Shown one piece after another: positions 8,915 through 40,092 of a stretch of DNA of 64,000 bases. The DNA comes from Candidatus Poribacteria bacterium. Lineage in GTDB: Bacteria; Poribacteria; WGA-4E; WGA-3G. Each line of letters starts with the position of its first letter. The first letter of the stretch is position 1. Where the stretch lies: positions 62,001 through 126,000 of the forward strand of contig JAJDTJ010000035.1 in NCBI GenBank assembly GCA_022827225.1, in the 5' to 3' direction. The translations under genes were made by a program, and so were the position numbers. Under the pieces are notes generated by a model. The model searched no databases. It was not told the DNA's origin and saw only the letters and a program-made list of their open reading frames with translations.

Positions 8915-11872
8915 ATGCCGAATCAACACGAAACGACAATTACAAATCACTTGGTCAACATCCTGCGAAACATGCGTCACGGATGGGAAGTTGAAACGGC
9001 AGTTCATGCTTTCATCAAAGGCAACAATGAACTTGATGCCATTGTTGTTGAACGCGGCAGAGAACCCATTGGGATTGAAGCAAAGTACGCTACCACCACC
9101 AACGCCAAAAATCTCATAGCACAAGCAGAGACAAGACTTATGCTTGAACTTGAAACCGAATACCACGTCGTTGGAAAAACCCTCAACAATGTCATGGCTA
9201 TCCTATATCCTGATCGTTTTAAGACGATGGCGGGAGCGGATATCAATCCAACACTCCGCACAGCAGACGACCTCCAATACAAACTTGTCAATACTGTCGG
9301 TGATACCGTTGCACACTTTCCAACAAACGGATGGGCAGTCGGCACCGTAGGAGACATCGCAAATGCGCTCCACATCGGGGCAATGCCGAACTCTCATCTT
9401 GAAAATGCTGCAGAGCAGATGGAGAAAAGTATCAACAAGGCAGCCTATCTGCTTGAAGATGCCATTGTTGAGCATCCTGCTATCGGCACAAAAATTGAGG
9501 CAATTTTGCACCAAGAGGTCTTATCTAAAGTGGAAGATAACACAGAAGGAAAACCGAACGGACAGACACTTCGCATGGCAGCATTGATTATCACCGATGC
9601 TTTTGTGTTTCAGAGTTCCCTTGCTGGTAAAACAGAAATGGAATCTGTTCGTTCGCTCCGTCAACTTCTGCCTACAATTGATTATGCTGATGTTATTGAG
9701 GACTGGAATACAATTCTCAAGGTTAATTACCGTCCAATCTTTGAAGATGCCCGTGACCTTGTTGAAGCACTTGCAACGGACGATAGACTGGTTAAACATA
9801 TCTTAAAACTCCTATGTGAGGCAGCCAAGGATCTCGTTGATACCGGCATCGCACAAATCCACGAACTCGCGGGTATAGTGTTTCAAAAGCTAATCACTGA
9901 TAGGAAATACGTCAAGGCGAACTACACACTGCCAGAGAGCGCGGTCCTGTTATCAACCCTCGTGATGCCTGAACTGCCTGAAAGTGAGCTTCCGAAAGTG
10001 GCGGATTTTGCTTGTGGAACTGGGGCACTGCTCAACGGAGTATACCAGCGCATACTGTCCTTGTATGAACAATCTGGTGGAAACGGCAAAGATATTCATC
10101 AACGAATGCTGGAGAAGAACATCGCAGGGGCAGATGTCATGCCGAATGCCACACATTTAACGGCTGCCGCTCTTGCCAGTACACATTCAGGAATCAAAAT
10201 CGGCGGGACTCAAATTGTTACCGCACCTTATGGCGTAATTGATGATGGAAGTTACGCTACAGGTTCATTGGAATTGCTTGATGACATAAAACTATTTGAT
10301 ACGAATGCTGAAAAAATCGGAGGCGAGGAAAACACTGTCGTTAAGCTCCAACAACAGTTCCAACATGGTGATATTGACATTGTTATACAGAATCCTCCAT
10401 TTACGAGACCCGGATCTGATAGTAATACTGATATTCCGAAGTCTACGTTCCAGGGTCATGATCGGCCCGAGGAAGACCAGAGGTTGATGCAGGCTGCATT
10501 GAAATCGAAAAACACACGAGTAACTGATGGGACAAACGGTTTTGTTTCTGCTTTCGTAGACCTCGCGGATAAGAAACTTAAAACCGGCGGCACCATGGCT
10601 TTTATCTTACCACTGACGGTGTTGAGATCTCCGACTACAGAAAAACTAAGGGAAATGTGGGCTACCGAATACCATAATGTAGTTATAATAACTATGGCAC
10701 ATGCGAAGGCAAAAGATAGCGCGTTTTCTGCTGACACAGGCATGGCAGAATGCATCATCCTCGCGATGAAAGGTGTAGGAGAGAACACAGGACGTGGTCA
10801 GTTTGTATGTCTGATTCAGAGGCCTCAAAGCGCACTTGAAGCTGTAGAAATTGCAAATCAGATTAATCGAAGTAACAGTATACGTAAACTTGAAGATGAA
10901 CCGAGTGGTGGTGAACCAATTAACATTGGGAATATGACCGTTGGGCAGATGTTAAACTGTCCAATAGATAGTAGTGTTGCGTGGATAGCAACACGCGCGA
11001 GATCAATGGCGTTGTTGCAGACTGCACATAGAATCGCAAGTGGTAAACTCCACCTTCCTATGTCAAGGGAGCGTGTTCCTATTCACATCTGCCAGGTACA
11101 AGACATAGCAAGGGTTGGTTCGGCAGATTCCTCTAGAGAAAAAGACGGTCCATTTATTATGATGAAAGGATGCAAACCGAATAGTGATGGCTTCAATGCA
11201 CTGTGGAAAGTTAATGCACCTTTGCAGCGAACTATGGTTGCAGAACCAGACTATACTGCAATCCCTCGTTCAAACGACAATGCTATGGTTAAGCGAGTCT
11301 TAGACTGCTTCAGCAAAACTCATTATCACCTCAATTTGACTTTTGGGGCAAACTCGGTGATATCTTCCTTTACTGAGGAACCCTCTATTGGGATAACATC
11401 AATGATAAATGTTTTGCTCAACGCCCCGCGACACGAGATTGCTTGGACTCTCTGGTGCAACTCAACGTTAGGATTATTCTGCCACTGGTCACACTGTAGT
11501 AAACAACAAATGGGACGTGGTAGACTGCGTCAGCAAACATTAAAAACGCTGCCAACGTTGGATGTGCGTGAACTTTCAGATGAAGCCTTAGCGAACGCAG
11601 ATGCTATCTTTGAACGTTTGAAGTATAAACGGATGCTGCCTGTCAACGAGTGCGCGCATGATTCCATACGGAAGGAATTAGATAGTTGTTTATTGACTGA
11701 GGTGTTAGGAATTACGAACAACAATGTGCTTAAATCAATGCAGACATTGCGTGAGATGCTCAGTGCTGAGCCAAGTATTCATGGAGGGAAGAAGTCCAAG
11801 TGCAATCTCGACTCAGAATTGGCGAGACTTAAACTGAAGGGTATCCCGTTTCCGAGTTGGTACCTTGACTAA
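8915..11872 (+). CDS. Single-chain N6-adenine DNA methylase with N-terminal nuclease-like domain (type IIG-like R-M enzyme)
   Basis: The protein has 985 residues. The N-terminal approximately 100 residues carry a PD-(D/E)XK-like pattern: NNELDAIVV (D41) then IGIEAKYA (E55, K57), followed by a Q/R helix. A helical linker leads to an N6_Mtase domain with SAM motif I DFACGTG (364-370) and catalytic motif IV NPPF (493-496). Residues about 690-985 have no family signature visible and probably form the target-recognition part. Type IIG enzymes join cleavage, methylation and specificity in this way. There is no separate HsdS or HsdR neighbour. Its 3' end overlaps that of the convergent XRE-ImmA gene by 4 bp. 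A solitary methylase with a degenerate nuclease is the alternative. Confidence 0.78.
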   Translation: MPNQHETTITNHLVNILRNMRHGWEVETAVHAFIKGNNELDAIVVERGREPIGIEAKYATTTNAKNLIAQAETRLMLELETEYHVVGKTLNNVMAILYPDRFKTMAGADINPTLRTADDLQYKLVNTVGDTVAHFPTNGWAVGTVGDIANALHIGAMPNSHLENAAEQMEKSINKAAYLLEDAIVEHPAIGTKIEAILHQEVLSKVEDNTEGKPNGQTLRMAALIITDAFVFQSSLAGKTEMESVRSLRQLLPTIDYADVIEDWNTILKVNYRPIFEDARDLVEALATDDRLVKHILKLLCEAAKDLVDTGIAQIHELAGIVFQKLITDRKYVKANYTLPESAVLLSTLVMPELPESELPKVADFACGTGALLNGVYQRILSLYEQSGGNGKDIHQRMLEKNIAGADVMPNATHLTAAALASTHSGIKIGGTQIVTAPYGVIDDGSYATGSLELLDDIKLFDTNAEKIGGEENTVVKLQQQFQHGDIDIVIQNPPFTRPGSDSNTDIPKSTFQGHDRPEEDQRLMQAALKSKNTRVTDGTNGFVSAFVDLADKKLKTGGTMAFILPLTVLRSPTTEKLREMWATEYHNVVIITMAHAKAKDSAFSADTGMAECIILAMKGVGENTGRGQFVCLIQRPQSALEAVEIANQINRSNSIRKLEDEPSGGEPINIGNMTVGQMLNCPIDSSVAWIATRARSMALLQTAHRIASGKLHLPMSRERVPIHICQVQDIARVGSADSSREKDGPFIMMKGCKPNSDGFNALWKVNAPLQRTMVAEPDYTAIPRSNDNAMVKRVLDCFSKTHYHLNLTFGANSVISSFTEEPSIGITSMINVLLNAPRHEIAWTLWCNSTLGLFCHWSHCSKQQMGRGRLRQQTLKTLPTLDVRELSDEALANADAIFERLKYKRMLPVNECAHDSIRKELDSCLLTEVLGITNNNVLKSMQTLREMLSAEPSIHGGKKSKCNLDSELARLKLKGIPFPSWYLD

Positions 11873-13394: not shown

Positions 13395-13490
13395 ATGAGT
13401 AGGCAAAATGAGAACCAATCCACCTATGATAATCGGGTTCGTACTCTCGCGAACCAACCTAAAAATGAAGGAGAATTTTTCCATGTATAA
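13395..13490 (+). CDS. 31-residue leader peptide overlapping the CD-NTase start
   Basis: An ATG at 13395 follows the strong site AGGAAGG (13381-13387). The frame begins MSRQNENQSTYDN and runs 31 codons to the TAA at 13488-13490. The CD-NTase ATG (13483) lies inside its last codons, so the two frames overlap by 8 bases. The peptide is hydrophilic, with no membrane segment and no recognised family. The arrangement suggests translational coupling of the cyclase to the leader, or a small regulatory component. Its coding status rests only on the ribosome site and the overlap. Confidence 0.45.
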   Translation: MSRQNENQSTYDNRVRTLANQPKNEGEFFHV

Positions 13491-14649
13491 TGTCACCTCA
13501 CTACTTGAGGCTATATCTGAAGCGTTGGATATCCCTGAAAGTTACTACAAACAAGCGGTAAAACGCTATAAATCAATCGGTACGTGGTTAGAACGGGACG
13601 AATCTATAGTTACCTGCTATAACCCTGAAATTTATCCACAAGGTTCTTTTTTAATTGGCACGGTTACGAAACCCATTTCTGGTGCTGAGGAGTACGACAT
13701 CGACCTTGTCAGTGAGTTGAGCCTTCAAAAAACTGAAGTCAGCCAAGAAAGACTAAAGTATTTAGTCGGCCATGAAATTGAGTCTTATGTCCGTGCTAAC
13801 ACCATGAACTCTCGACCGGAAGAGAGTAGACGTTGTTGGACCCTAAATTATGCAGATGGTGCTCAGTTTCATGCGGATATCTTGCCTGCAATCCCGGATG
13901 CTGAACCGTTTAAACAGTTCCTTGAATCAAGAGGCTACACACCTTCTAATTGGTCGGACTGCGCGATTGCAATTACGGACAATACTCTCCCTAATTATTC
14001 ACTGATTAGTCCTGACTGGCCCAATAGCAACCCAAAAGGTTATGCTGCTTGGTTCAGACATCGTATGGAAACCCAATTCAATGCGATCCGAAAATCCCTC
14101 GCTGAATCGATTCAACGGCAGGTTGAGGACGTGCCAGAGTATAAAGTGAAAACTCCACTCCAGCGATCAATTCAGATTTTAAAGCGGCACCGCGACATCT
14201 GGTTTGACAAGAATCAATCTGTCTATGGCAAAAAGGCGAAACCGATCTCTATCATCATTACTACGCTCGCAGCTCATGCCTACAACAACGAAGCCGATCT
14301 TCAACAAGCTTTACTGAAAATTGTAAAGGAAATGCCTTGCCATATTGAGTATTATAACAACGGTGCGGCACTCATACGTAATCCGGTAAATCCGCTTGAG
14401 AATTTCGCAGATAAGTGGCAAGAGTATCCGATTCGAAAAACGTGTTTCATGGATTGGCTTAGGCAGGCACAGTATGATCTGACCCAAGCTTTAGGATTGA
14501 GTGATATTCAGAGTGTTGGCAAATCACTAAAGCCTTGCTTGGGTGAGCAAGTTACCAGTGACGGACTACGAAACGTTTCCAACGGGAGAAGTCGTCCTGC
14601 CTCTACCCTGTCAGCAACAGTAATCCCTAAAAAATCCTATGCACGGTAA
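13483..14649 (+). CDS. CBASS CD-NTase (cGAS/DncV-like nucleotidyltransferase)
   Basis: The protein has 388 residues. The start at 13483 (MYNVTSLLEAISEALDI) has AAGGAG at 13468-13473, and the N-terminus matches the family's usual opening. An in-frame ATG at 13465 and an earlier in-frame start are less likely. Catalytic features are complete: the GS loop G54-S55 in YPQGSFLIGT, the metal-binding D72 and D74 in YDIDLV, and the third acid D132 in FHADILP. CD-NTases make cyclic di- or tri-nucleotide alarms upon phage infection. It is the first main gene of a three-gene operon, with the E2-like gene 8 bases downstream and the SAVED effector after that. The product nucleotide and clade cannot be told from sequence alone. 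Confidence 0.93.
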   Translation: MYNVTSLLEAISEALDIPESYYKQAVKRYKSIGTWLERDESIVTCYNPEIYPQGSFLIGTVTKPISGAEEYDIDLVSELSLQKTEVSQERLKYLVGHEIESYVRANTMNSRPEESRRCWTLNYADGAQFHADILPAIPDAEPFKQFLESRGYTPSNWSDCAIAITDNTLPNYSLISPDWPNSNPKGYAAWFRHRMETQFNAIRKSLAESIQRQVEDVPEYKVKTPLQRSIQILKRHRDIWFDKNQSVYGKKAKPISIIITTLAAHAYNNEADLQQALLKIVKEMPCHIEYYNNGAALIRNPVNPLENFADKWQEYPIRKTCFMDWLRQAQYDLTQALGLSDIQSVGKSLKPCLGEQVTSDGLRNVSNGRSRPASTLSATVIPKKSYAR

Positions 14650-14657
14650 TTTCAGCC

Positions 14658-15317
14658 ATGAAACTAACCACCAATGAAATTGAATGGCTAGAGTCACATC
14701 TCCCGGGTTTACAATACGAGTCAAGTTCCTCAAAAATCATAGGGGAACTTGACTTTCATGCCGCGTATAATAGCAAATCAGGAGAGTTGATAATCGGTGA
14801 TCATGCAAGAAAAATGGCGCGATTTATTTATGATGTTTTTGAGATTGAGATCCACTTGGCTAATTTGGACGAGAACGGATGGCCAAAAGTATATGAGGTT
14901 GGCGGTAGGTACCATCATATCTCTCAAAAATGCGGCATCAACATCAAAGATTTACACATTAATCCTGATAGCACGTGTTGCTTAGGTCTTAAATATGGTG
15001 GTAACAGGAATTTTCTCATCAAAGAGTTCCTTCCGGAAGTGGTAATTCCATTTTTTTATCAACTCTCTTATACAGAGAAATTCGGGATTGACGCTACTCG
15101 TGAGGATCTCTGGGGCGAATATTCCCATGGGGAAAAAGGGCGTGCAGAATATGAAGTTGAAATGTTAAATTTAGCAAAACACCAACCTAATAGAAACGAT
15201 TTATGTCCTTGTGGAAGCGACAAAAAGTATAAAAAATGCCACATGGATCAAGTTGAATCTGTAGAACGGCGTATAATGGAAACAACATCGGATGCGAAAA
15301 CTCGCTGGAGTCCTTAG
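14658..15317 (+). CDS. CBASS E2-like (ubiquitin-conjugating-fold) protein with C-terminal SEC-C zinc motif
   Basis: The protein has 219 residues. The middle segment LHINPDSTCCLG (99-110) has the layout of prokaryotic E2 active sites (H-x-x-P-x-x-x-C-L), giving C107 or C108 as the thiol. The C-terminus carries a SEC-C knuckle (C183, C185, C194, H195 in DLCPCGSDKKYKKCH), the zinc motif otherwise seen at the end of SecA. In type II CBASS an E2 domain conjugates or processes the CD-NTase C-terminus; the short type has E2 without an E1 or JAB protein, as here. The SEC-C tail may bind the cyclase or another partner. The E2 assignment rests on position and this motif, so a distant family is possible. 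Confidence 0.72.
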   Translation: MKLTTNEIEWLESHLPGLQYESSSSKIIGELDFHAAYNSKSGELIIGDHARKMARFIYDVFEIEIHLANLDENGWPKVYEVGGRYHHISQKCGINIKDLHINPDSTCCLGLKYGGNRNFLIKEFLPEVVIPFFYQLSYTEKFGIDATREDLWGEYSHGEKGRAEYEVEMLNLAKHQPNRNDLCPCGSDKKYKKCHMDQVESVERRIMETTSDAKTRWSP

Positions 15318-15429
15318 AGGCAAGGCTGTTAGGTCCGCTTGTTATTCAAATCACAAGTATTATCATTGGGCAATGAATAGATAGCTAGAATCTAGCCCTA
15401 CCACAATATGAAATAAGGAGATTAAACCT

Positions 15430-16599
15430 ATGTCTAGAAGAAAAAAATCAAGGTCGAAGATTACCCGTGATTCTATTCCAGATCGTACTCGCCTGAAATT
15501 ATGGGTTAAGTCGGCGGGCCGGTGCGAATTTAGCGGATGTAACAAACCCCTTTGGCGCAATGATCTAACTTTAAGTGACGGAAACTTTGGGGAAATGGTT
15601 CATATTATCGGAGCGAGCAGAGAAGGCCCAAGAGGCAATGAAGAATCTGCGAATCTACAAATTGAGTTTTCTAACCTTATGCTGATGTGTCACCAATGTC
15701 ATAAGGAAATCGACGCTAATCCCAAGGATTATCCGCCAGAGAAACTTTGCGAGTGGAAAAGCAGGCATGAAGATAGAATCGAGATCCAAACGAGTTATTC
15801 AGAAGATATTTATAAATCTACAGTTCTATTGTTCTCCGTGAATATAAGCGAAAGGATTGTTCCAATTAACCGCCAGGCTTATCTTAACGCAATGCGTCCA
15901 AAATTCCCGAGTGACGAAAAGGGGATTAAGATTGCGAAGGCCAATTTTGGAGGACACCGAGATGAAAAACACTGGAAAGTTTTAGCAGAGGAAATCCAAG
16001 AAGAAATCAAAACAAGTTTTAAAGAAGGAATAAACGAAGAAAGGATTAAACACCTTTCTGTGTTCGCTCTTGGACCTATGCCATTGCTAATGTTTTTGGG
16101 AAAGTGTATCGGCGATACCATTCCAACAGATTTGTACCAGAGCCACAGAAATATTACCGATACAAATCATACCTGGTCCTGGCCGCAGGAGGAACAGAAT
16201 ACAGAAACGTGTTATATTGTGAAACCTCTCCAAATTAAAAAAGACAGTAAAAACGTTGCTATTGTGTTGTCTCTAAGTGCGAAAATCCCGGCGAAACGCT
16301 ATGCAAAACTAGTTTCGGAAGGCTTTAGTATTTATGAGATAACCATTGAAAATCCATCTCTGTATTTCTTAAAGTCCCTTAAACAAATAGAGGGCTTCAG
16401 TCGTGAATACAGAAAGTTGCTAAACGAAATTCAATCTACCCATGGAGATTCCTGTGAGATTTCTATTATACCAGCAGTTCCAGCACCGATTGCAGTTGAG
16501 TGCGGCCGAGTTCTTCTGCCAAAATCAGACCCTGAAATTTTTGCGTATGAATATGATAACAGTCAGGATAGATTCAGAAGGGTACTTAAAATCAATTGA
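15430..16599 (+). CDS. CBASS effector: HNH endonuclease-SAVED fusion (Cap5-like)
   Basis: The protein has 389 residues. AAGGAG lies before the ATG. The N-terminal HNH domain shows RCEFSGCNKPL (C32, C37), MVHIIGAS (H58) and LMCHQCHKEID (C87, C90, H91), the pattern of zinc-stabilised HNH nucleases. From about residue 125 the chain has SAVED character (HLSVFALGPMPLLMFLGK, then AIVLSLSAKIPAKRY and a late ECGRVLLP). In Cap5 proteins the SAVED domain binds the cyclic nucleotide, oligomerises and switches on HNH cleavage of DNA, causing abortive infection. It is co-directional with the cyclase and E2-like genes, after a 112-bp gap. No separate promoter was identified in that gap. Confidence 0.9.
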   Translation: MSRRKKSRSKITRDSIPDRTRLKLWVKSAGRCEFSGCNKPLWRNDLTLSDGNFGEMVHIIGASREGPRGNEESANLQIEFSNLMLMCHQCHKEIDANPKDYPPEKLCEWKSRHEDRIEIQTSYSEDIYKSTVLLFSVNISERIVPINRQAYLNAMRPKFPSDEKGIKIAKANFGGHRDEKHWKVLAEEIQEEIKTSFKEGINEERIKHLSVFALGPMPLLMFLGKCIGDTIPTDLYQSHRNITDTNHTWSWPQEEQNTETCYIVKPLQIKKDSKNVAIVLSLSAKIPAKRYAKLVSEGFSIYEITIENPSLYFLKSLKQIEGFSREYRKLLNEIQSTHGDSCEISIIPAVPAPIAVECGRVLLPKSDPEIFAYEYDNSQDRFRRVLKIN

Positions 16600-23343: not shown

Positions 23344-24786
23344 CTATGCTAATGCGTTTTTCAGCTGCTCCACTGCGTCAATAGCCTCCTCAAGTTCTTT
23401 TTTATAGATGTTCACGAAGGTGTCATGACTGAGTTCATTTAGGATAAATTTTCGTGCCAATTCAATTTTGTCAACAACTCTTAGATCTAAAAGGAGGTGT
23501 CCGGCTTCGTCCGTTTCCATTTTTATCGGTCCCCAGAAATCTTCGCTTCTCAAGTCTTTCGGATTTTCGCGATACTTAATAGCGAGATCCTTTTTCTCAC
23601 AATACTGCTTGATTGCCGCTTCAAAAGCCGTGCGAACATAGATTGCACAGGCTTTGTAGTCATTGGCATCAAGATATTCCCGTGCCTTTTCAAGATACGC
23701 CTTATCTTCTGCATAGACCGGAATTTCATACTCATCGGTTTGTGAGAAATAGAATTCAACAGCTTTCCATTTCCCACCACGCGATGTGCGCTGTTTGACG
23801 ATCTCATACCACGCCTTATCGTAAGTTGTCAAAAAGATTTGGTAATCTGAGAAATACTCGTCAAGGATATCAAGTATCGGCAGACGGTTTGACATGTCCA
23901 AACCTATCAGCACGTCGTCAAGTGCAAGGATTTTCATGCCCCCTTTTGGTTCTGGCAAGCACAAGATTGACGAAAGATAGATAGCAATCGCAATCGCTGA
24001 TAACTTTGCCTCGTTCAGTAAGCGATGATGTGAAGGTATGTCCGTATCAAAAAATTCAACTTTTAAGAGAATCTCTCGGTTATCAAGCGTTTTCTCACCT
24101 TGGTTGTACGTAACGCCTTGAAAATCAAAGTCAAGCGCGACTTTGTATCCAAACTTGTTGAGAATTTCGGACACCTTCGGACTTAATTCTGTTAACCTGT
24201 TTGTTAATTCTCTGTTGAAGTTAACTATCTGTCTTTCCAGATCCGCAATTTGATGTTTTGCACCTCTGCGGGGAAACGGAGGCTGAATGGCGTTCCAGTC
24301 CGCTGTGAGGGGTCTATCAGTCCTCGGGTTGACGGTGTTTGCCAACAGCACTTCAACCAACAGATCAAACAAATTTACAATATCGTTTTCACGATGAAGG
24401 TAGTGTGTTTCCAATAGTACCTTGTAGTCAAGAAAACCTTTCGCTTTTGACGTTTCACTAATCAGTTCGTCAGTTATTTCTTTAACATCTCTTGACCATT
24501 CGTAGGTGTTTTTCTCTCGTTGAGGCTCTGAAAAGAAACGAAGTTTGATATGACCAGGATCCTCGGTAAAGATGTTCTGATGGGTTTCAAACGCCCGGTT
24601 CCTGTTATCCTCGCTATTTTCGGGCACACTGGATTCAAGAAAATACTTTAGGGCGAGATATAGTGACGATTTTCCACTCCCGTTTTCTCCATAAACAAGT
24701 AAGTTCTTCCCCGTATCATGAAGATTGATGTGATAGGTTTGCGGAAAAGCTCTGAAATTTTTAATCTCAATATTGGTTATTTTCAC
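23344..24786 (-). CDS. RecF/SMC-like AAA ATPase coupled to the TIR-TPR protein
   Basis: The protein has 480 residues. Walker A is GENGSGKSS (33-41) straight after the strand MKITNIEIKNFRAF, the standard start of RecF/SMC/OLD-type ATPases. A signature-like helix NEAKLSAIAIAIYLSSIL (258-275) precedes Walker B ILALDDVLIGLD (286-297), with D290/D291. There is no TOPRIM domain, so it is not OLD. The C-terminal 120 residues are all-helical (YKACAIYVRTAFEAAIKQY), possibly HEPN-like. Its ATG overlaps the stop of the TIR gene (ATGA), so it is translated with it. In other two-gene defence systems such ATPases sense phage DNA or drive assembly of the effector. It is not a transporter ATPase. Confidence 0.85.
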   Translation of the reverse strand: MKITNIEIKNFRAFPQTYHINLHDTGKNLLVYGENGSGKSSLYLALKYFLESSVPENSEDNRNRAFETHQNIFTEDPGHIKLRFFSEPQREKNTYEWSRDVKEITDELISETSKAKGFLDYKVLLETHYLHRENDIVNLFDLLVEVLLANTVNPRTDRPLTADWNAIQPPFPRRGAKHQIADLERQIVNFNRELTNRLTELSPKVSEILNKFGYKVALDFDFQGVTYNQGEKTLDNREILLKVEFFDTDIPSHHRLLNEAKLSAIAIAIYLSSILCLPEPKGGMKILALDDVLIGLDMSNRLPILDILDEYFSDYQIFLTTYDKAWYEIVKQRTSRGGKWKAVEFYFSQTDEYEIPVYAEDKAYLEKAREYLDANDYKACAIYVRTAFEAAIKQYCEKKDLAIKYRENPKDLRSEDFWGPIKMETDEAGHLLLDLRVVDKIELARKFILNELSHDTFVNIYKKELEEAIDAVEQLKNALA

Positions 24787-27665
24787 AGTTTCCCCTGAAT
24801 AACGCGGATCGGTTTTATAACATCCAGATAATAAAGGTGACGTCGGACAAGATGCATCCTGTCATATAACAGCTCAAAGATGTCCCGGAAAGCGGACATT
24901 TTATCACCCTGAATCTCTTCAATTGACGGTAACCCTTCATCCAATAACGGTTGCAAGAAAACTTTATCGCTCTTATGAAGTTCCTCAGGGAGGTATGCCT
25001 CATAAATCAGTCCATCAATAACGCGCTCAAAGTATCCGAGCATCACATGATCGCGGGCATACTTCAAATCCTCGCTGTTTATCTCCGGTTGCTGCTGTAG
25101 AGAGATCAGATAGTCAACGATTTTAGCAATAAGTGCTTTGTGGACTGGCGTGATGTCGGGTATCGGAATCTGTTGGATATATCCACTGCGTGCCCGGAGC
25201 GGATCAATCGTCAATTGGTTCGACACCTGCGAATAAAACCACTCCACAGTCCGGGAATTGAGAAGACCGCAAAGCCACTTTTCTTGGGTTGGGATAAGAT
25301 AGGACGTATTGCCATAATAAAAACCTTCGGTATCAACCGCAAAAGTGTGATGGTTATAGGTGTTTGGACAGACCAGTTTCGGTTGTGCAAAACGTTCTTC
25401 ATGGTCAAGAGACGCAGGTAACTCATACCATGCCTGTTTACCTTTTCTTTTCTGTAGGTTTTCTTTCTGCTTTTCCAAATACTTCAGAATTGCTGGATAG
25501 TCGTCTATCGCTATACCGCGGTGGGTAAAGATTAACCATTGCTGCGGTGTCTCAACGTGCCAACGTCTGATATCCTGTCCGTACAGAAATGGCTTCAAAA
25601 TATTAGCAGATGCGGGATGTGCCGCAAGGAGTTCATCCCGTGTCGCTTTGTCCACCACAAACACCTCAGTGGGCATCGTATTGATACCGAAGGTGGACTT
25701 TGCATTGATGTAGTCGCTTAGCCGTGGACCAGCGTTGCGCAGCTGCTCGCGTAAGTTCACTACGTCCGGCGATTCAAGCGGATTACCATCAGCATCCAAC
25801 ACTTTTTGCAGCTTCGGGTAGCGATCTCGCCTGCGTTGCGTCAGCAGAAGCGCGAGGTCTTCCGGCAATTTAACACCGTGTCGCTTTTCATAAGTTTCAG
25901 TATCTTTGTAGGAATTATGAAACGAGGCAATGATGTCCACACCCCTACGTTTTGCAGTTATCAGATCGGTTTTGGCTTTTTCCCACTCTTTCAAGTATAA
26001 TAATGCCGCGCCCCGATGGTAATAGGCTATAGGGTCCTTTGGATTTAGTTCCATTGCCTTAGCGTAGTCTTCAATAGCAAGGTTAACTTTGCCCTTGATA
26101 AAATAAACCACACCGCGATTGATATGGGCAGCAACTGTTTTCGGATCTAATTCTATTGCTTTGGTATAGGCAGCGATTGCCTCATCGTATTCACCTTTGT
26201 TAGCATGGGCGGAACCCTGATTATTGTAAGTACCAGCATGATCTGGATCAAATTCTAAGGCTTTGTTAAAGTCTCGAATGGCAAGGTCAACTTCGCCTTT
26301 GTCACCATAGGCAGCTCCGCGATTATTGTATATCTCAGGAAAACATGGATCTCGTTTTATTACCTCATTATAGTTATCAATTGCTCGATCGGGTTCACCA
26401 TTCAGGTTGTAAGCCAACCCACGATTGTTGTAGCCTAAGGCATCATCTGGGTTCAGTGCTATTGCTTTGTTATAGTTTTCAATTGCTCGCCCATACTGAC
26501 CTTTGTGATGGTAAGCCACACCGCTATTGATATAGGCATTGGCAAAATCTGGGTTCAGTGCTATTGCTTTGTTATAATCCTTGATTGCCCGATCAAAATC
26601 AAGTTTGTTCGCATAAACAAGTCCGCGATTGTTGTAGGTGCCAGGATCGCGTGGACTTAATTCAATTGATGTTGTGAAATCTTTGATAGCTTTCGTATGT
26701 TCACCGTTACTGCCGTAGGTAGCACCACGATTGTTATATATGCCAGCATGGTGTGGATTCAGAACAGCTGCTTTATTATAATTTTCTATAGCCGTTTCAA
26801 ACTCATTTTGGAGATAGTATGCAGTCCCACGGTTGCAATAGGCTTCAACATAAACTGGATGCAATTCTATAGCTTTGTTAAAATCTGCGATGGCAAGATC
26901 GTATGCTCTCTTTTTAGCATAAATGATTCCACGGTTATTGTAAGCGGACGATGATTTAGGGACGAGGACTATCACATTGTCATAGTCTTCAATTGCCTTC
27001 TCATAATTTCCTGTTCTCTCATAAGCAATCCCACGATTATTATAGGCATCAGTGTAACGCGAGTTCAGTTCAATAGCACGCGAGTACGCCACAATAGCTT
27101 GGTCTATTTGCCTTAGTGTTAGCAAGAAATTGCCTTGTTTGAACGCGAGTTCCGCCATGGTTTGCAACTGTATTTTGTGGATGACTTCTCGGATGCCTTC
27201 CACTACACTTTGCCAACCTTTACTTCTGGGGTTCCATTCGTTAAGAGGTCTCCCTTCGGCAGGTAAAGCTTGAAAGTCGCTAAGTTTTTGAGATTCCCAC
27301 TCACTAAGGAATGAGCTTTCAGTAGACAAAGCTTGGACATTGCTCAATTTATAATTTTTCCAATCGCAATCTTCAAGAATAATCAAGATGGGGGTTATGT
27401 TTTTTTCTAAGACTAATGCCAATTCTTCATTACAAGTTTTAGAGGCAAGGCTCTCAGAGGAAACGAGGTAAAGCCATATATCTGAATCGGGTAGGTTAGT
27501 AGAAAAAATTTCTTCACGCCATTTGTCACCTGGAATGATCTCATTGTCGTGCCAAGGGTCTATTAGACCCTCGCGCTTCATTGGTTCAAGGCATGTGAGC
27601 AGTTTATTCTTTGCTTTCTTATTTTTATGTGAATATGTAATGAATCCTTTTAGAGGCTTGCTCAC
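24783..27665 (-). CDS. TIR domain - 12 TPR repeats - TaqI-C-like DNA specificity domain fusion
   Basis: The protein has 960 residues. A GTG at 27665 is chosen because GAGGAGAG precedes it and it starts directly at the TIR strand (SKPLKGFITYSHK); an upstream TTG is possible. TIR spans about 5-100, with DPWHDNEIIPGDKW (the BB-loop region) and SSESLASKTCNEEL, where the CNEEL glutamates (about 80-81) match the NADase catalytic position. Residues about 169-576 are twelve TPRs of the AYNNRGIAY type. From about 580, PRLSDYINAKSTFGI, PFLYGQDIRRWHV and SYLIPTQEKWLCGLLNS match the TaqI-C specificity region of Eco57I/TaqI-type methylases, without any methylase motif. The likely role is TIR NAD cleavage triggered through DNA recognition; the trigger is inferred. 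Confidence 0.82.
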   Translation of the reverse strand: MSKPLKGFITYSHKNKKAKNKLLTCLEPMKREGLIDPWHDNEIIPGDKWREEIFSTNLPDSDIWLYLVSSESLASKTCNEELALVLEKNITPILIILEDCDWKNYKLSNVQALSTESSFLSEWESQKLSDFQALPAEGRPLNEWNPRSKGWQSVVEGIREVIHKIQLQTMAELAFKQGNFLLTLRQIDQAIVAYSRAIELNSRYTDAYNNRGIAYERTGNYEKAIEDYDNVIVLVPKSSSAYNNRGIIYAKKRAYDLAIADFNKAIELHPVYVEAYCNRGTAYYLQNEFETAIENYNKAAVLNPHHAGIYNNRGATYGSNGEHTKAIKDFTTSIELSPRDPGTYNNRGLVYANKLDFDRAIKDYNKAIALNPDFANAYINSGVAYHHKGQYGRAIENYNKAIALNPDDALGYNNRGLAYNLNGEPDRAIDNYNEVIKRDPCFPEIYNNRGAAYGDKGEVDLAIRDFNKALEFDPDHAGTYNNQGSAHANKGEYDEAIAAYTKAIELDPKTVAAHINRGVVYFIKGKVNLAIEDYAKAMELNPKDPIAYYHRGAALLYLKEWEKAKTDLITAKRRGVDIIASFHNSYKDTETYEKRHGVKLPEDLALLLTQRRRDRYPKLQKVLDADGNPLESPDVVNLREQLRNAGPRLSDYINAKSTFGINTMPTEVFVVDKATRDELLAAHPASANILKPFLYGQDIRRWHVETPQQWLIFTHRGIAIDDYPAILKYLEKQKENLQKRKGKQAWYELPASLDHEERFAQPKLVCPNTYNHHTFAVDTEGFYYGNTSYLIPTQEKWLCGLLNSRTVEWFYSQVSNQLTIDPLRARSGYIQQIPIPDITPVHKALIAKIVDYLISLQQQPEINSEDLKYARDHVMLGYFERVIDGLIYEAYLPEELHKSDKVFLQPLLDEGLPSIEEIQGDKMSAFRDIFELLYDRMHLVRRHLYYLDVIKPIRVIQGKL

Positions 27666-27702
27666 GACTTCTCTCCTCAGCAATGCGATTTACTTGACGG
27701 TA

Positions 27703-27839: not shown

Positions 27840-28393
27840 CTATGATTTCCCCTTCAAACTCCGCGCCTTCCGTAGCCGAGATTCCACCAGATTCACAACA
27901 GCCTCATACACCCCATCCCGCTCACCTTGTGTGAGGTTGAGGGCATCAAACATGATTGCGTCAAGGACGAGACGATCGTCTGAGGGCTCAAGCATTTCCC
28001 ATGCAGTTGATGTGAATATTGCTTCGTCTTCAAATGCGAAGATTTTTGGATATAAACACAGCAATTCCGAAACCTCGTAGGTCTGAATTTTCAGCAGACC
28101 GCCGCCGAAATTAGAGCGTCCCGCCATATTCACCATCAGTTGAAACAGTGACGAATTCAAGGAAGCACACAAAGGCAATATCAAACTGGAATCTGCGTGG
28201 ACCTCTTAGAAGTTGTCGCTTGCATAGCAACCTTCTTGTGCATACAGGGTTCTGGCAGTTGAAGAAATAGTGTGCGTTGACTCTGGTAGCCTAACACCTT
28301 GAGGAGATGAGTGGCGTTTTCGGTGAGTTCGTCCTTCGTGAAGTTGTTAAGTACGCGTTGGATGTCGGTTCTGAGATGTGTTTGATGCATCAC
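27840..28393 (-). pseudogene. Internally deleted remnant of a class I DNA methylase (type IIG-like R-M)
   Basis: Two frames on the minus strand make up the remnant. The first (28393 to 28181, MMHQTHLRTDIQRVLNNF) resembles the N-terminal helical segment of Eco57I-type R-M proteins (ATHLLKVLGYQSQRTL). The second (in frame from a stop at 28208 to 27840) resumes in their extreme C-terminus (LILPLCASLNSSLF, FGGGLLKIQTYEV). The large central part, including the methylase motifs, is missing, and the junction at about 28200-28260 is frameshifted. I read it as a gene that lost most of its length. The two frames could also be read as two small proteins, but the second has no proper start. Confidence 0.6.
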
Positions 28394-34506: not shown

Positions 34507-35823
34507 CTAATCCGCCCGGAGTGCTTCAACGGGGGTGAGTTTCGCTGCTTTATTGGCAGGATATAACCCGAAGAAGATACCGATAGCGACAGAAACGAGT
34601 AGGGCGATCAGCATCGTGGTGAGCGAGATGACCGATGGCCAGTTGCTCCCTTCCCAGACGAACTTAGAGATGAGCGCAGCGGTGCCGCGTCCCATAAAGA
34701 TACCTAAGATTGCACCGAGGAGACCGCCTGCAAGTGTCAGCACGGCCGCTTCGATCAAGAATTGGGTTAAAATATCGTTCCGTGTTGCCCCGAGGGCTTT
34801 CCGTAATCCGATCTCCTGCGTCCGGTCGGTAACAGAGACGAGCATGATGTTCATCACACCGATGCCAGCCACCATGAGAGCGATACCGGCAATACCCCCC
34901 ATTAAGGCTTTCATGACCAAGCCGACCTTATTCGCCGTTGCTAATTCTTCTGTAGCTGTCCAATAGTTATATTCTTCACCTGTGTTGTTGTGTTGTCTCC
35001 CTAATACGGTTTTGGTATCCGCTATTGCTAGCGGGATGGTATCAACGTCAACGGCTTCAACGCGGATGCGTTCGACATCTTGCCGCCCTTTAAAACGCTG
35101 TTGGAGTGTTGTTATCGGAATGATAAACCGGTCGTCCCATCCGGAAGTATCCATCGCGTCGCCTTTTTCTTCCATGACACCGATGACTTTGAGGCGTACC
35201 TCATAGAGTCCACTCCTTCCGTACCGGTAGGACTGACGGGAGGCTTTAATCTCTTTTCCAACAGGGTCTTCATCAATGAAGACTTCTTCAGCAATTTTCG
35301 AGCCGATGACAGCGACGCTACTCGCGGCTTCTACCTCTTCAGCGCTAAAGAACCTTCCGCTTGAGGTGTACCAGTTATGGGACCGGTCATATCCAGCGGT
35401 GGATGCGACGATACGGGATTCCTTTGAGCGTCCTTTGTAATTCACGTTCCATCCCGACATATCGTCTTCAGCGACGACATCGACGACACCGCGGGCGTGC
35501 TTTAGAATCTCAAAAGCATCTTCGGTTTCCAAATCCTCAGCGCGATTCCTTTGCCAGCGGCCTCTGCCGCGTACGGCTTCGCCGGCTGCACGGCTCAGCG
35601 TCCCGGATTGTTTGTCCCAATCGTCTTTATAAACCTCAATAATTTTCGTGCCGCCGGTTCGTTCAATCTCACGCAGAACCATAGCACTTGATCCGTCTCC
35701 GACGGATACCATACTCACAACCGAGCCGACACCGACGATAATCCCTAAGATCGTCAAAGCGGATCGGAGCGGGTTACGCCGCAAACTGGAAATGCCTAAA
35801 ATGATACATTCAAGTATATTCAT
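34507..35823 (-). CDS. MacB/FtsX-type ABC permease 1 (no ATPase domain)
   Basis: The protein has 438 residues. An N-terminal membrane helix (SLRRNPLRSALTILGIIVG) is followed by a periplasmic MacB_PCD domain (about 45-280) and three C-terminal helices containing the FtsX signature DRTQEIGLRKALGATRNDI. There is no Walker motif, so an ATPase must come from elsewhere. GGAG precedes the ATG. It is the most divergent of the four permeases and lies between permease 2 (12 bp) and the adaptor (52 bp), probably in one operon. The likely role is lipid, peptide or drug export, or an FtsX/LolCE-like mechanical function. Confidence 0.87.
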   Translation of the reverse strand: MNILECIILGISSLRRNPLRSALTILGIIVGVGSVVSMVSVGDGSSAMVLREIERTGGTKIIEVYKDDWDKQSGTLSRAAGEAVRGRGRWQRNRAEDLETEDAFEILKHARGVVDVVAEDDMSGWNVNYKGRSKESRIVASTAGYDRSHNWYTSSGRFFSAEEVEAASSVAVIGSKIAEEVFIDEDPVGKEIKASRQSYRYGRSGLYEVRLKVIGVMEEKGDAMDTSGWDDRFIIPITTLQQRFKGRQDVERIRVEAVDVDTIPLAIADTKTVLGRQHNNTGEEYNYWTATEELATANKVGLVMKALMGGIAGIALMVAGIGVMNIMLVSVTDRTQEIGLRKALGATRNDILTQFLIEAAVLTLAGGLLGAILGIFMGRGTAALISKFVWEGSNWPSVISLTTMLIALLVSVAIGIFFGLYPANKAAKLTPVEALRAD

Positions 35824-35835
35824 TTCGTGTGTCTC

Positions 35836-37137
35836 CTAATCGGTACGTAGTGCCTCGATGGGTGAGAGTGCTGACGCTTTTATTGCAGGATACAGTCCGA
35901 AGCATATACCGATGATAGCTGAAAATGATACCGAAATCAGTATCCATTGGGTTGAGATGACCGAGGGCCATTCAGGGACAATTTGGACGATTTTAACAGC
36001 GAGGAGTGCCATCCCTTCGCCAGCGAGCATCCCTAAACCGATGCCGATCGCACCGCCAACGGCACACATGAAAACGGCTTCTATTAAGAACTGTATTAAG
36101 ATGTCCACACGTTTTGCACCGAGTGCTTTTCGGAGTCCGATCTCGCGGGTCCGCTCGGTTACAGCGACGAGCATCATATTCATAATCCCGATGCCGCCGA
36201 CGAGGAGCGAGAACCCTGCGATACTCCCGAGAGCGATTTTTATCACATTACCGATTCTCTCCAATTGCGCCATGCCTTCGCGCATGTCCCTGAGCATAAA
36301 GAAATCGTCTTGATTTTTATGCCGTTTCCGAATAACGGCTTTCACTTCCTCAATTGCTTGTGGTACGGCTTCGACCGTATTTGCGTGAACAGAAAGCATT
36401 ACAATTTGATCGTTGCCGGTGAACCGTTTCTGTGTTGTTGTGATCGGGAGGAAGACCATGTCATCTAAGTCCCATCCGAATCGTAGGCTTCGCCCGCGGG
36501 GTGCCATCGTTCCGACGACGGTGAACCGTTCGGTAATCCGTGTATGGTCTCTTCTGCCCCACCGATCCCGTCGATCGCCACCTCTACCGATCTTAATCTC
36601 TTTCCCTATCGGTGAAGTGTTGCCGAATAAGGTCGCAGCAACCACTGTACCTAACACACAGACTTTTGTTTCGTTTTCAATATCTCCTTCGGAAATGAAC
36701 CGTCCTTGTTCAATATCCCAATCCATCGCTTCGGCGAATGTGTAGTTTACACCGTTATAGCCTGTCCGTGCTTCGGACCCATCAGAGGCTTGGACGAGAA
36801 CGCCTCGCCATTCCGGGATTCGCGGCACAACAACTTTCACTGATGGACATTCTGCCTCGATTGCCAACACATCTTCAAATTCAAAGTATTCGTTACTACG
36901 ATTTGCGACCCATCGGTTGCCTACCCGTTTATGACCGGTTCGATACATCGTAAACTGGTTCACACCGCCCAATTTCTGGGCATCTTGTAGCACAATCGCT
37001 TTCGCACCGTCACCGATGGCGATCATCGCGAGGACCGCGGCCACACCGATAATAATACCGAGCATGGTGAGCAGCGAACGGAGTTTGTTGCTACGAATCG
37101 CAGAGATTCCAACAAATAACCCTTCAAATATACGCAT
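35836..37137 (-). CDS. MacB/FtsX-type ABC permease 2
   Basis: The protein has 433 residues with GGAGGCGTG before the ATG. Its structure is as in permease 1: an N-terminal helix, the MacB_PCD domain and FtsX helices with RTREIGLRKALGAKRVDIL. It aligns without gaps along its whole length to permeases 3 and 4, so the three arose by tandem duplication. The periplasmic part shows most differences (for example NRSNEYFEFED here and RSNEYLEYED in permease 3). The stop is only 12 bp from the ATG of permease 1. Confidence 0.87.
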   Translation of the reverse strand: MRIFEGLFVGISAIRSNKLRSLLTMLGIIIGVAAVLAMIAIGDGAKAIVLQDAQKLGGVNQFTMYRTGHKRVGNRWVANRSNEYFEFEDVLAIEAECPSVKVVVPRIPEWRGVLVQASDGSEARTGYNGVNYTFAEAMDWDIEQGRFISEGDIENETKVCVLGTVVAATLFGNTSPIGKEIKIGRGGDRRDRWGRRDHTRITERFTVVGTMAPRGRSLRFGWDLDDMVFLPITTTQKRFTGNDQIVMLSVHANTVEAVPQAIEEVKAVIRKRHKNQDDFFMLRDMREGMAQLERIGNVIKIALGSIAGFSLLVGGIGIMNMMLVAVTERTREIGLRKALGAKRVDILIQFLIEAVFMCAVGGAIGIGLGMLAGEGMALLAVKIVQIVPEWPSVISTQWILISVSFSAIIGICFGLYPAIKASALSPIEALRTD

Positions 37138-37330
37138 TTCACGCCTCCGAATTAAAATATATTTGTATGCTTAACTTTTAGACAGCGAAAGCGTAAATAA
37201 GTTCGCGTTTTTTCGCAATAGTTTTCTGATTAGAAACCGATTCTGCACCTCAATTCTGGTAAGGCTAACTATCCTTTTAGACGTAATTACGTTAAAAGGG
37301 TTTAGTATTTTCGGATCGTCCACGGATATG

Positions 37331-38632
37331 TTATTCTGTCCGAAGTGCCTCAATCGGCGAGAGTGCCGATGCTTTTACGGCGGGATATAATCCGAACAGG
37401 ATACCGATTATTGCTGAGAACGATACTGAAATGAGTACCCATTGGGTCGAGATGACGGCTGGCCATTCAGGGACAATTTTAGCGATTTTGACAGCGAGGA
37501 GTGCCATCCCTTCACCGGCGAACATACCTAAACCGATACCGATCGCACCGCCGACGCTGCATATAACGATGGCTTCCATGAGGAACTGCGCCATAATGTC
37601 TAACGGTTTCGCACCGAGTGCTTTTCGGAGTCCGATCTCGCGTGTCCGCTCACTCACGGCAACGAGCATCATATTCATAATCCCGATGCCACCAACGAGG
37701 AGCGAAAATCCGGCGATGCTCCCCAAGGCGATTTTGATCATTTTGCTGATTTTCTCTAACTGTGCCATCCCTGAACGCATCTCGAAGATTCCGACAAAGC
37801 TGTCATCGCCTTTATGGCGTTTTCGGATAACGGTTTTTACCTCCTCAATCGCTTTCGGGACATCCTCGACGGTATGGGCGTAGACGACAATATCCTGAAT
37901 CTGATCGTTGCCGGTGAAACGTTCTTGGACTGTAGAGATAGGGATAAAGACGAGGTTATCGTAACTCCAACCGAACCGGAGGCTTCGCCCGCGCGGTGTC
38001 AGCGTACCAACGACGGTGAACCGTTCTGTAGAGCGTTTATTGTCTCGGCGTCCCCAGCGATCGTAACGATCTCCACCTTTTCCTATTTTGATCTCCTGTC
38101 CTACCGGTGATTTGTTCCCGAACAGTTCAGTCACGACTTCTTGTCCGAGCACACAGATTTTTGTTGCATTTTGGACATCTTCGTCTGTAATGAAACGTCC
38201 CTCTTGAACGTCCCAATCCATTGCGACTGGATAGTTGGCATCTACGCCGTTGTACCCAGCGCGGGTTTCGGAACCGTCAGCAGCTTGGATTAACGACCCT
38301 CTCCATTCAGGGATTCGAGGCGTGACAGCACGTACCGATGGACATTCGGCTTCAATGGCGAGGACATCTTCGTATTCCAAATATTCGTTGCTACGGATAC
38401 GAGTCCACCGTCCGCCTTCACGTTTATACCTTGTGCGGTACATCGTGAACTGGTTTGCACCGCCTAATTTCTGTGCGTCTTGTAGGACGATGACCTTCGC
38501 ACCATCGCCGATTGCGATCATTGCAAGGACGGCAGCGACCCCGATGATAATCCCTAACATCGTCAGCAGCGATCGCATTTTATTTGCCCGAATTGCTGAG
38601 AGTCCGATTGATAACCCTTCAATTATACGCAT
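37331..38632 (-). CDS. MacB/FtsX-type ABC permease 3
   Basis: The protein has 433 residues and starts after AGGAGGAGAG. It is a paralogue of permeases 2 and 4 with nearly the same length. The FtsX signature SERTREIGLRKALGAKPLD is identical to permease 4 apart from its first residue, while the extracytoplasmic domain has diverged. A 193-bp gap separates it from permease 2, so a promoter may lie there. No ATPase gene is adjacent. Confidence 0.87.
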   Translation of the reverse strand: MRIIEGLSIGLSAIRANKMRSLLTMLGIIIGVAAVLAMIAIGDGAKVIVLQDAQKLGGANQFTMYRTRYKREGGRWTRIRSNEYLEYEDVLAIEAECPSVRAVTPRIPEWRGSLIQAADGSETRAGYNGVDANYPVAMDWDVQEGRFITDEDVQNATKICVLGQEVVTELFGNKSPVGQEIKIGKGGDRYDRWGRRDNKRSTERFTVVGTLTPRGRSLRFGWSYDNLVFIPISTVQERFTGNDQIQDIVVYAHTVEDVPKAIEEVKTVIRKRHKGDDSFVGIFEMRSGMAQLEKISKMIKIALGSIAGFSLLVGGIGIMNMMLVAVSERTREIGLRKALGAKPLDIMAQFLMEAIVICSVGGAIGIGLGMFAGEGMALLAVKIAKIVPEWPAVISTQWVLISVSFSAIIGILFGLYPAVKASALSPIEALRTE

Positions 38633-38729
38633 CTCTCCTCCTTAAATTTTCGGAAACTTCGCGGCTATTAAAAACCGTAATGTTAGACGTGATTTTTGAA
38701 AATAAGTTTATTGGTGGGTGCGGCTGTAA

Positions 38730-38758
38730 TAAGAAAAGGCGCGCTTTATCAGCGCGCC
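38730..38758 (-). terminator. Intrinsic terminator after permease 4
   Basis: On the minus strand GGCGCGC (38758-38752), a 7-nt loop, GCGCGCC (38744-38738), then TTTTCTT (38737-38731). It is 33 bases past the stop of permease 4, so permease 4 is probably a separate transcription unit from permease 3. Confidence 0.75.
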
Positions 38759-38790
38759 TATAGAAACGGATATTCCTTGAACGATTATAA

Positions 38791-40092
38791 TTACTCTGCA
38801 CGTAGTGCTTCCTTGGGCTGGAGCATAGAGGCTTTTATTGCAGGATACAGTCCAAACGAGATACCGATCGCCGCGGAGAAGGATACTGAGATCAATACCC
38901 ACTCCGTTGAAATAACCGCTGGCCATTCGGGAACAATTTTAGCGATTTTGACAGCGAGGAGTGCCATCCCTTCACCGGCAAGGGCACCTAAACCGACACC
39001 GATTGCGCCACCGACACCGCACATTGCGACTGCTTCTATGAGGAATTGGGCCATGATGTCTAACGGTTTCGCACCGAGTGCTTTCCGTAGACCGATCTCC
39101 CGGGTCCGTTCATTCACAGCGACGAGCATCATATTCATAATGCCGATACCACCGACAAGAAGTGAGAATCCGGCAATACTTCCCAATGCGATTTTAATCA
39201 TTTTACTAATCCGCTCTAATTGTGCCATGCCTGAACGCATCGCCCGGATTTTGATGAAGTCGTCTTGGTCATTGTGCCGTTTTCGGATAACTGTTCTTGC
39301 CTCCTGAATTGCTTTCGGGATGTCGTCAGTGGTATTTGCGAAAATCATAATATCCGAAACCCTATCGCCGCCGGTGAGACGCTCTTGGACAGTTGATATC
39401 GGGATAAAGGCAAGGTTATCGTAACTCATGCCGAAACGTAGACTTCTGCCTCTCGGTTGAAGTGTGCCGACAACCGTGAAGCGTTCAGTCAAACGCTCTC
39501 GTCGCCTTCTGCCCCACTGATCACGGTATCGGACATTGCGTGCAATTTTAATCTCTTGTCCTAACGGCGATTTATTGCCGAAAAGTTCAAAGGCGATTTC
39601 GTCGCCGAGTACGCAAATTTTTGTTGCGTTTTGGACATCTTCGTCTGTAATGAAGCGGCCCTCTCTAAGTTCCCACTTCATTGCGGTTTGATAGTTGGCA
39701 TCTACACCGTTATAGCCTGCCCGAATTTCAGAGCCACCTGGCCCCTGAATCAAAACGTCTCTCCAATCTGGAATTCTCGGAGCAACTGAACTTATGGATG
39801 GGCATTCAGCCTCAATTGCTTGGGCATCTTCATATTTCATGTATTCATTACTACGTACACGGACCCATCTATTATTTTCTCGTTTGTAGGATGTGTGATA
39901 AAGTGTAATGCGTGTCGCGCCGCCTAATTTTTCTACATCATTCATCACAATTTCTTTGGCACCGTCACCGATGGCAATCATTGCCAGGACTGCCGCGATA
40001 CCGATGATAATCCCTAACATCGTTAGTAGCGAGCGCATTTTGTTCGCTCGAATCGCGGCGAGTCCAATAGATATTCCTTCAATTAAACGCAT
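38791..40092 (-). CDS. MacB/FtsX-type ABC permease 4
   Basis: The protein has 433 residues with TAGGAGGAAAC before the ATG. It is a paralogue of permeases 2 and 3 with the same domain order and NERTREIGLRKALGAKPLD near the C-terminal helices. Its periplasmic domain is the most changed of the three (VMNDVEKLGGATRITLYH, SIGLAAIRANKMR). An intrinsic terminator follows, so it may be expressed apart from the others. An energising ATPase must lie outside this stretch. Confidence 0.87.
   Translation of the reverse strand: MRLIEGISIGLAAIRANKMRSLLTMLGIIIGIAAVLAMIAIGDGAKEIVMNDVEKLGGATRITLYHTSYKRENNRWVRVRSNEYMKYEDAQAIEAECPSISSVAPRIPDWRDVLIQGPGGSEIRAGYNGVDANYQTAMKWELREGRFITDEDVQNATKICVLGDEIAFELFGNKSPLGQEIKIARNVRYRDQWGRRRRERLTERFTVVGTLQPRGRSLRFGMSYDNLAFIPISTVQERLTGGDRVSDIMIFANTTDDIPKAIQEARTVIRKRHNDQDDFIKIRAMRSGMAQLERISKMIKIALGSIAGFSLLVGGIGIMNMMLVAVNERTREIGLRKALGAKPLDIMAQFLIEAVAMCGVGGAIGVGLGALAGEGMALLAVKIAKIVPEWPAVISTEWVLISVSFSAAIGISFGLYPAIKASMLQPKEALRAE

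Follow-up and report, generated by a model that had tools for sequence, protein, structure and literature searches.

Architecture of the locus

The window analysed here, a 64,000-nucleotide stretch of a Candidatus Poribacteria genome, carries on its reverse strand a gene that encodes a TIR domain, twelve TPR repeats and a TaqI_C-type specificity domain in a single protein, overlapped by a gene for a RecF/Rad50/SMC-like ATPase. The features of this gene pair and of its upstream flank are as follows.

24783..27665, reverse strand: effector-sensor gene (TIR, 12 TPRs, TaqI_C-type specificity domain, C-terminal extension; GTG start, 960 aa)
27303..27644, reverse strand: TIR domain, residues 14–127 (Pfam TIR_2, E 3e-11; ThsB, E 8.5e-18; alignment of family TIRs)
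27423-27425, reverse strand: codon of the invariant Glu87 of the TIR domain (alignment of family TIRs)
25938..27119, reverse strand: 12 TPR repeats, residues 189–582 (Pfam TPR_1)
25161..25595, reverse strand: TaqI_C specificity-domain core, residues 697–841 (Pfam, E 6.5e-16; M.BseCI 7qw5, E 1.6e-16)
24786..25043, reverse strand: C-terminal extension, residues 881–966, putative ATPase-docking segment (profile coverage)
23344..24786, reverse strand: RecF/Rad50/SMC-like ATPase, 480 aa, 4-nt overlap with the effector gene (AAA_23, E 5.9e-12; RecF, E 7.6e-9)
27846..28390, reverse strand: type IIG restriction-methylase remnant upstream of the fusion gene (tblastn against intact type IIG genes of related loci)

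The reading frame of the fusion gene (27683..24783, reverse strand) is open for 966 codons, with its mechanical start at TTG 27683. The start is likely the GTG at 27665, which has GGAGAG upstream and gives a protein of 960 aa; residue numbers follow the 966-aa frame throughout.

A sequence-only reading of this stretch had described the product as a fusion of TIR, twelve TPRs and a TaqI-C region, with neither a SAM nor an NPPF motif. Pfam places TIR_2, twelve TPRs (TPR_1, E 9e-106) and TaqI_C along the protein in this order, with the TaqI_C model covered at full length. In PADLOC the N-terminus is best matched by a ThsB-type TIR and residues 636–858 match a type IIG REase-MTase (E 8.5e-25), while the best solved relative of the C-terminal-region profile is the methylase M.BseCI (PDB ID: 7qw5). 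A motif search of the protein found no SAM-binding or NPP[FYW] motif, and no methylase was present among the best 25 Pfam families listed. On these grounds the described architecture is confirmed, as is, at the level of profiles, the TaqI_C-like identity of the C-terminal region. Structure prediction did not add to this, since the AlphaFold2 model of the specificity region (residues 589–966) had a pLDDT of 52.7 and left the fold unconfirmed by structure. Of the glutamates that had been proposed as catalytic candidates in CNEEL, the one of the motif C-N-x-E-L is E87, which is invariant across all TIR versions aligned.

The ATPase retains intact Walker A (GENGSGKSS), signature (LNEAKLSA) and Walker B (LALDD) motifs. 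Its AlphaFold2 model (pLDDT 78.4) has a helical C-terminal domain and was matched by Foldseek to Rad50/SMC heads (E ~1e-11) and also to RecF heads. Besides the ATPase, the genes adjoining the fusion gene encode a phytase-like protein and a TPR protein.

Approximately 7–11 kb from the module, in the same window, lies a CBASS operon (13408-16599, forward strand), and a further restriction-type gene precedes it.

8915-11872, forward strand: 985-aa restriction-type protein (Eco57I-type methylase domain, E 7.2e-9)
13408-14649, forward strand: DncV-like nucleotidyltransferase of the CBASS operon
14658-15317, forward strand: 219-aa ORF of the CBASS operon
15430-16599, forward strand: SAVED endonuclease effector of the CBASS operon (SAVED, E 5.6e-42)

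The CBASS operon and the further Eco57I-type methylase gene support a defence island, and the defence setting suggested earlier holds up on this basis, together with the type IIG genes found upstream in related loci (below). The N-terminus of the 985-aa protein reads like a PD-(D/E)XK nuclease. Elsewhere in the window (34507-40092, reverse strand) there is an unusual array of four tandem paralogous MacB/FtsX-like permease genes (433–438 aa).

Distribution and selection

We examined 49 loci with the TPR-specificity architecture, from ~45 genomes, mostly Candidatus Poribacteria; the named carriers outside this group are two Latescibacterota genomes and one Gemmatimonadetes genome. A search of 98 genomes returned a homologue in genome G015 with 90% identity across the whole protein, along with dozens more TPR-specificity proteins. 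The window genome and the best-matching genomes belong to the same genus. Across 85 genomes of the phylum, a profile scan found the specificity domain at family-level scores in ~40, some with two or three copies, and the specificity domains of type IIG enzymes scored far below family level. Searches of phage and plasmid collections yielded methylases, other TaqI_C proteins and, on a single Nostoc plasmid, a stand-alone specificity domain with the ATPase, but nothing else.

Purifying selection acts on every part: dN/dS relative to the G015 homologue is ~0.05 (TIR domain), ~0.12 (specificity domain) and ~0.16 (ATPase). Given 90% identity in an independent genome and dN/dS of ~0.05–0.12, the fusion protein is neither chance nor chimera. 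An assembly chimera is ruled out because the 49 loci come from independent assemblies, some of them single-contig chromosomes, which disposes of the local assembly error that the sequence-only reading had held possible, and a decayed gene is ruled out by the open frames and dN/dS of 0.05–0.16.

The fusion and ATPase genes overlap by 4 or 7 nt in 44 of the 49 loci by automatic count. Adding a split copy (L040) and a pair cut by a contig end (L065) brings the loci that keep the pair to 46; in the remaining three the ATPase is truncated (one) or missing (two). The number of TPRs ranges from 6 to 33 among otherwise similar homologues (L034-L072 and others). The window's own genome has a second TPR-specificity gene (L071, contig C6), which has neither an ATPase nor a fused effector.

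A conserved putative sensor pair with an exchangeable effector

The specificity domain and the ATPase co-diverge, independently of the TIR domain. Across the TIR loci, specificity-domain distances correlate with ATPase distances (rho 0.72, Mantel p ≤ 0.0005); those of the TIR domain give rho of 0.05 with the specificity domain and 0.01 with the ATPase. In the nearest relative by sensor (G032), the sensor parts are 92% identical to those of the window and the TIR domain 63%.

The N-terminal effector is exchangeable. Most loci have a TIR ahead of the TPRs, that of L050 being of a second type; five have an FRG domain there and two have HNH_5, where the matches fall just under Pfam's own cut-off. 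In some loci no domain precedes the TPRs. Where no effector is fused, one may be supplied in trans: the adjoining upstream gene encodes an FRG-TPR protein in L068, a NERD-helicase in L063 and L104, and a helicase part in L106. The tree of specificity domain and ATPase (44 loci) requires at least 16 changes of effector class. One sensor is thus found with at least three different effectors, as in a modular platform. Exchange is also evident at a single chromosomal site beside a nitroreductase gene (189 aa), which is occupied by FRG, HNH, NERD-helicase or TIR versions depending on the genome (L048, L063, L064, L071, L072, L104-L107, L112 and L114) and is an apparent integration hotspot.

Conversely, genome G006 encodes a TIR-TPR protein whose N-terminal half is near-identical to that of the window protein, with neither specificity domain nor ATPase. 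Such a TIR-TPR gene, near-identical in the N-terminal half, is that at L038 (6891-9764, reverse strand), which has TPRs in place of the specificity domain and no ATPase gene, and adjoins an intact type IIG gene.

Related operons of type IIG methylases and ATPases

A homologous ATPase gene lies 3' of a type IIG methylase gene, with a 4-nt overlap, in three cyanobacterial genomes, in genome G535 (whose phylum group also includes the Latescibacterota and Gemmatimonadetes loci) and in three viral contigs. The C-termini of these methylases match the specificity domain of the fusion to its last residues, and a PLD-SNF2 helicase gene lies upstream where this was scanned. The G535 operon (L129, 513-10870) has four genes, encoding a PLD-SNF2 helicase, a type IIG methylase, the ATPase and a TIR protein. 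Its last two joints overlap by 4 nt, the terminal TIR gene being separate and overlapping the ATPase gene, and from its gene content it reads as a restriction system with a built-in TIR. Of the viral contigs (L130, L131 and L132), L131 and L132 carry an upstream gene of 1073–1107 aa.

The kinship extends to the end of the specificity domain. In all ATPase-coupled proteins the profile match reaches position 376–377 of 378; in type IIG enzymes without the ATPase it ends at 292–293, with ~20 residues left. The resulting 84-residue extension occurs only where the gene overlaps an ATPase gene, or did so formerly (a few decayed copies). Between G535 and the window protein, identity is 34% in the recognition core, 57% in the extension and 62% in the ATPase. 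We infer from this pattern that the extension docks the ATPase.

Because some lineages join the specificity domain and ATPase to a methylase and others join them to effectors, these two form the core of the system. The methylase form has the wider distribution, and for this reason would be ancestral to the effector form. Since type IIG and ATPase operons share the specificity domain and extension, one of them with a TIR, the module resembles a restriction system in which suicide effectors have taken the place of the enzymatic body.

Upstream type IIG genes

The type IIG gene upstream of the fusion in the window is not functional: an internal deletion has left its first 41 codons fused to its last ~143. 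A related gene lies upstream in ~13 loci, about a quarter of those related. Most bodies of these enzymes are 71–90% identical, and their specificity part is swapped between two unrelated types, with 27–30% identity to that of the fusion at best, or no similarity. The specificity domain of the fusion is conserved while theirs differ. Among the 85 genomes of the phylum that were scanned, none yielded a methylase carrying the extended specificity domain. A specificity common to the fusion and the upstream enzyme is unsupported, as is a match between the fusion and the neighbouring methylase: of that gene the window retains a mere remnant, most loci lack it, and its specificity domains differ and are swapped.

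Proposed mechanism and alternatives

From these computational results we favour, with confidence slightly above even, a two-gene abortive-infection module derived from a type IIG methylase that worked with a RecF/Rad50-like ATPase, sensing DNA and executing through its TIR domain. The sensor would be the specificity domain together with the ATPase, docked on the C-terminal extension of that domain. This pair would use ATP to engage invading DNA bearing a sequence or state that it recognises, and the TPR superhelix would relay the signal to the N-terminal effector and cluster it. Clustered TIR domains could then consume NAD+ or make an ADP-ribose signal, stopping the infected cell. The earlier reading as an immune effector is partly supported, by architecture, conservation and defence context, although it overlooked the ATPase partner, the exchange of effectors and the type IIG and ATPase ancestry.

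PARIS releases its effector on meeting Ocr, and a decoy or guard arrangement can be envisaged here too, with the specificity domain and ATPase imitating restriction machinery so that phage anti-restriction proteins (DNA mimics) bind and release the effector. We consider this unlikely. The module does persist where the methylase is a remnant or absent, it often adjoins an intact type IIG gene, and PARIS AriA is among the best PADLOC matches of the ATPase (E 4.2e-13); this match, however, covers only residues 1–116, the generic N-terminal part of the ATPase, there is no TOPRIM partner, and many loci have no type IIG enzyme to guard. It is rather doubtful, too, that the specificity domain is retained for docking and no longer reads DNA, with the TPRs or the ATPase sensing another phage product. 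Its conservation is even, with no hypervariable stretch, unlike the swapped domains of the neighbouring type IIG enzymes, yet the TaqI_C core is conserved and not decayed. Moreover, in one locus group the core has diverged to 45–48%, against values near 65% for the extension and the ATPase, the pattern to be expected if a recognition part is selected independently.

In a restriction-like logic, the specificity domain and a cellular methylase would share a target, and unmethylated invading DNA would trigger the effector. Related operons that encode complete methylases with the same domain, and the type IIG genes upstream in some loci, lean this way, but exchange of the upstream specificity domains, the decay of the window gene and the failure to find an extended-domain methylase in Poribacteria make it improbable. 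Candidatus Poribacteria, the main carriers, are sponge symbionts rich in TPR proteins, as would suit a regulatory or symbiosis-signalling protein with no part in immunity. That role is very improbable for a module with TIR, FRG, HNH and NERD-helicase exchange, restriction relatives and a CBASS neighbour, which are typical of defence.

The favoured reading, DNA sensing coupled to abortive infection, raises a testable question: if no methylase matches the sensor, how are foreign DNA and the cell's own told apart? Possible triggers are a DNA state (ends, replication forks), a sequence that the host lacks or protects, and an anti-restriction protein. If the reading is true, restriction systems evolve into sensor-effector immunity, keeping the part that reads sequence while the cutting part is replaced by cell-suicide domains.

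Comparison with known systems

The literature search, in which subscription papers were only partly covered so that absence is weak evidence, found no description of the module, and within that limit the earlier statement that no described system joins TIR to a methylase specificity domain stands. Judging from its sequence, we file the module as a variant of sensor-effector bacterial immunity, previously undescribed as far as we found and probably anti-viral. More tentatively, it may represent a new class of immunity, in which sensing is the sole task of a restriction recognition domain and a Rad50/RecF-like ATPase, which neither cut nor methylate and which trigger interchangeable TIR, FRG or HNH suicide effectors that are fused through TPRs or recruited in trans.

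The TIR domain most resembles ThsB of Thoeris, but is fused to TPRs and a specificity domain; no ThsA partner (SIR2/SLOG or similar) was found among the adjacent genes, the conserved neighbour being the ATPase. This ATPase is of the same broad RecF/Rad50/OLD-like kind as those of PARIS (AriA/AriB), Gabija, Septu, Lamassu and MADS mad3 (PADLOC, E 1e-8 to 1e-13), with the resemblance mostly limited to the ATPase head, and no TOPRIM, HNH or other partner of these systems lies beside it in the window. Pfam and PADLOC scans of the gene pair and its flanking genes found no AriB TOPRIM. They also found neither of the Gabija features, a TOPRIM within the ATPase gene and a partner helicase of the UvrD-like kind. 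Directly adjacent genes include no PglX or DrmM methylase with PglZ or DrmA/B, as in BREX and DISARM, and the likeness to DISARM is restricted to specificity-domain similarity to DrmMI (PADLOC). DndH is a defence protein that keeps specificity domains with a dead methylase; as described in PMC10853773, it differs in that the fold of the dead methylase is retained, together with a nuclease and a HerA/FtsK ATPase, and in having no TIR or TPR. Term searches of that paper and of PMC12839542 returned no TIR-TPR-specificity fusion.

Type IIG enzymes of the Eco57I/TaqI class, such as M.BseCI, share the C-terminal specificity domain (profile E 1.6e-16 to M.BseCI; 27–30% identity to type IIG domains); the module differs in having no methylase or nuclease part, and in its TPR array with an exchangeable effector, its 84-residue extension and its dedicated ATPase. 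We know of no name for the operons of PLD-SNF2 helicase, type IIG methylase and ATPase found in cyanobacteria, on the Latescibacterota side and in viral contigs. They have a homologous ATPase (31–62% identity), the extended specificity domain and the 4-nt overlap in common with the module, but encode a full methylase and a helicase, and their TIR, if any, is a separate gene.
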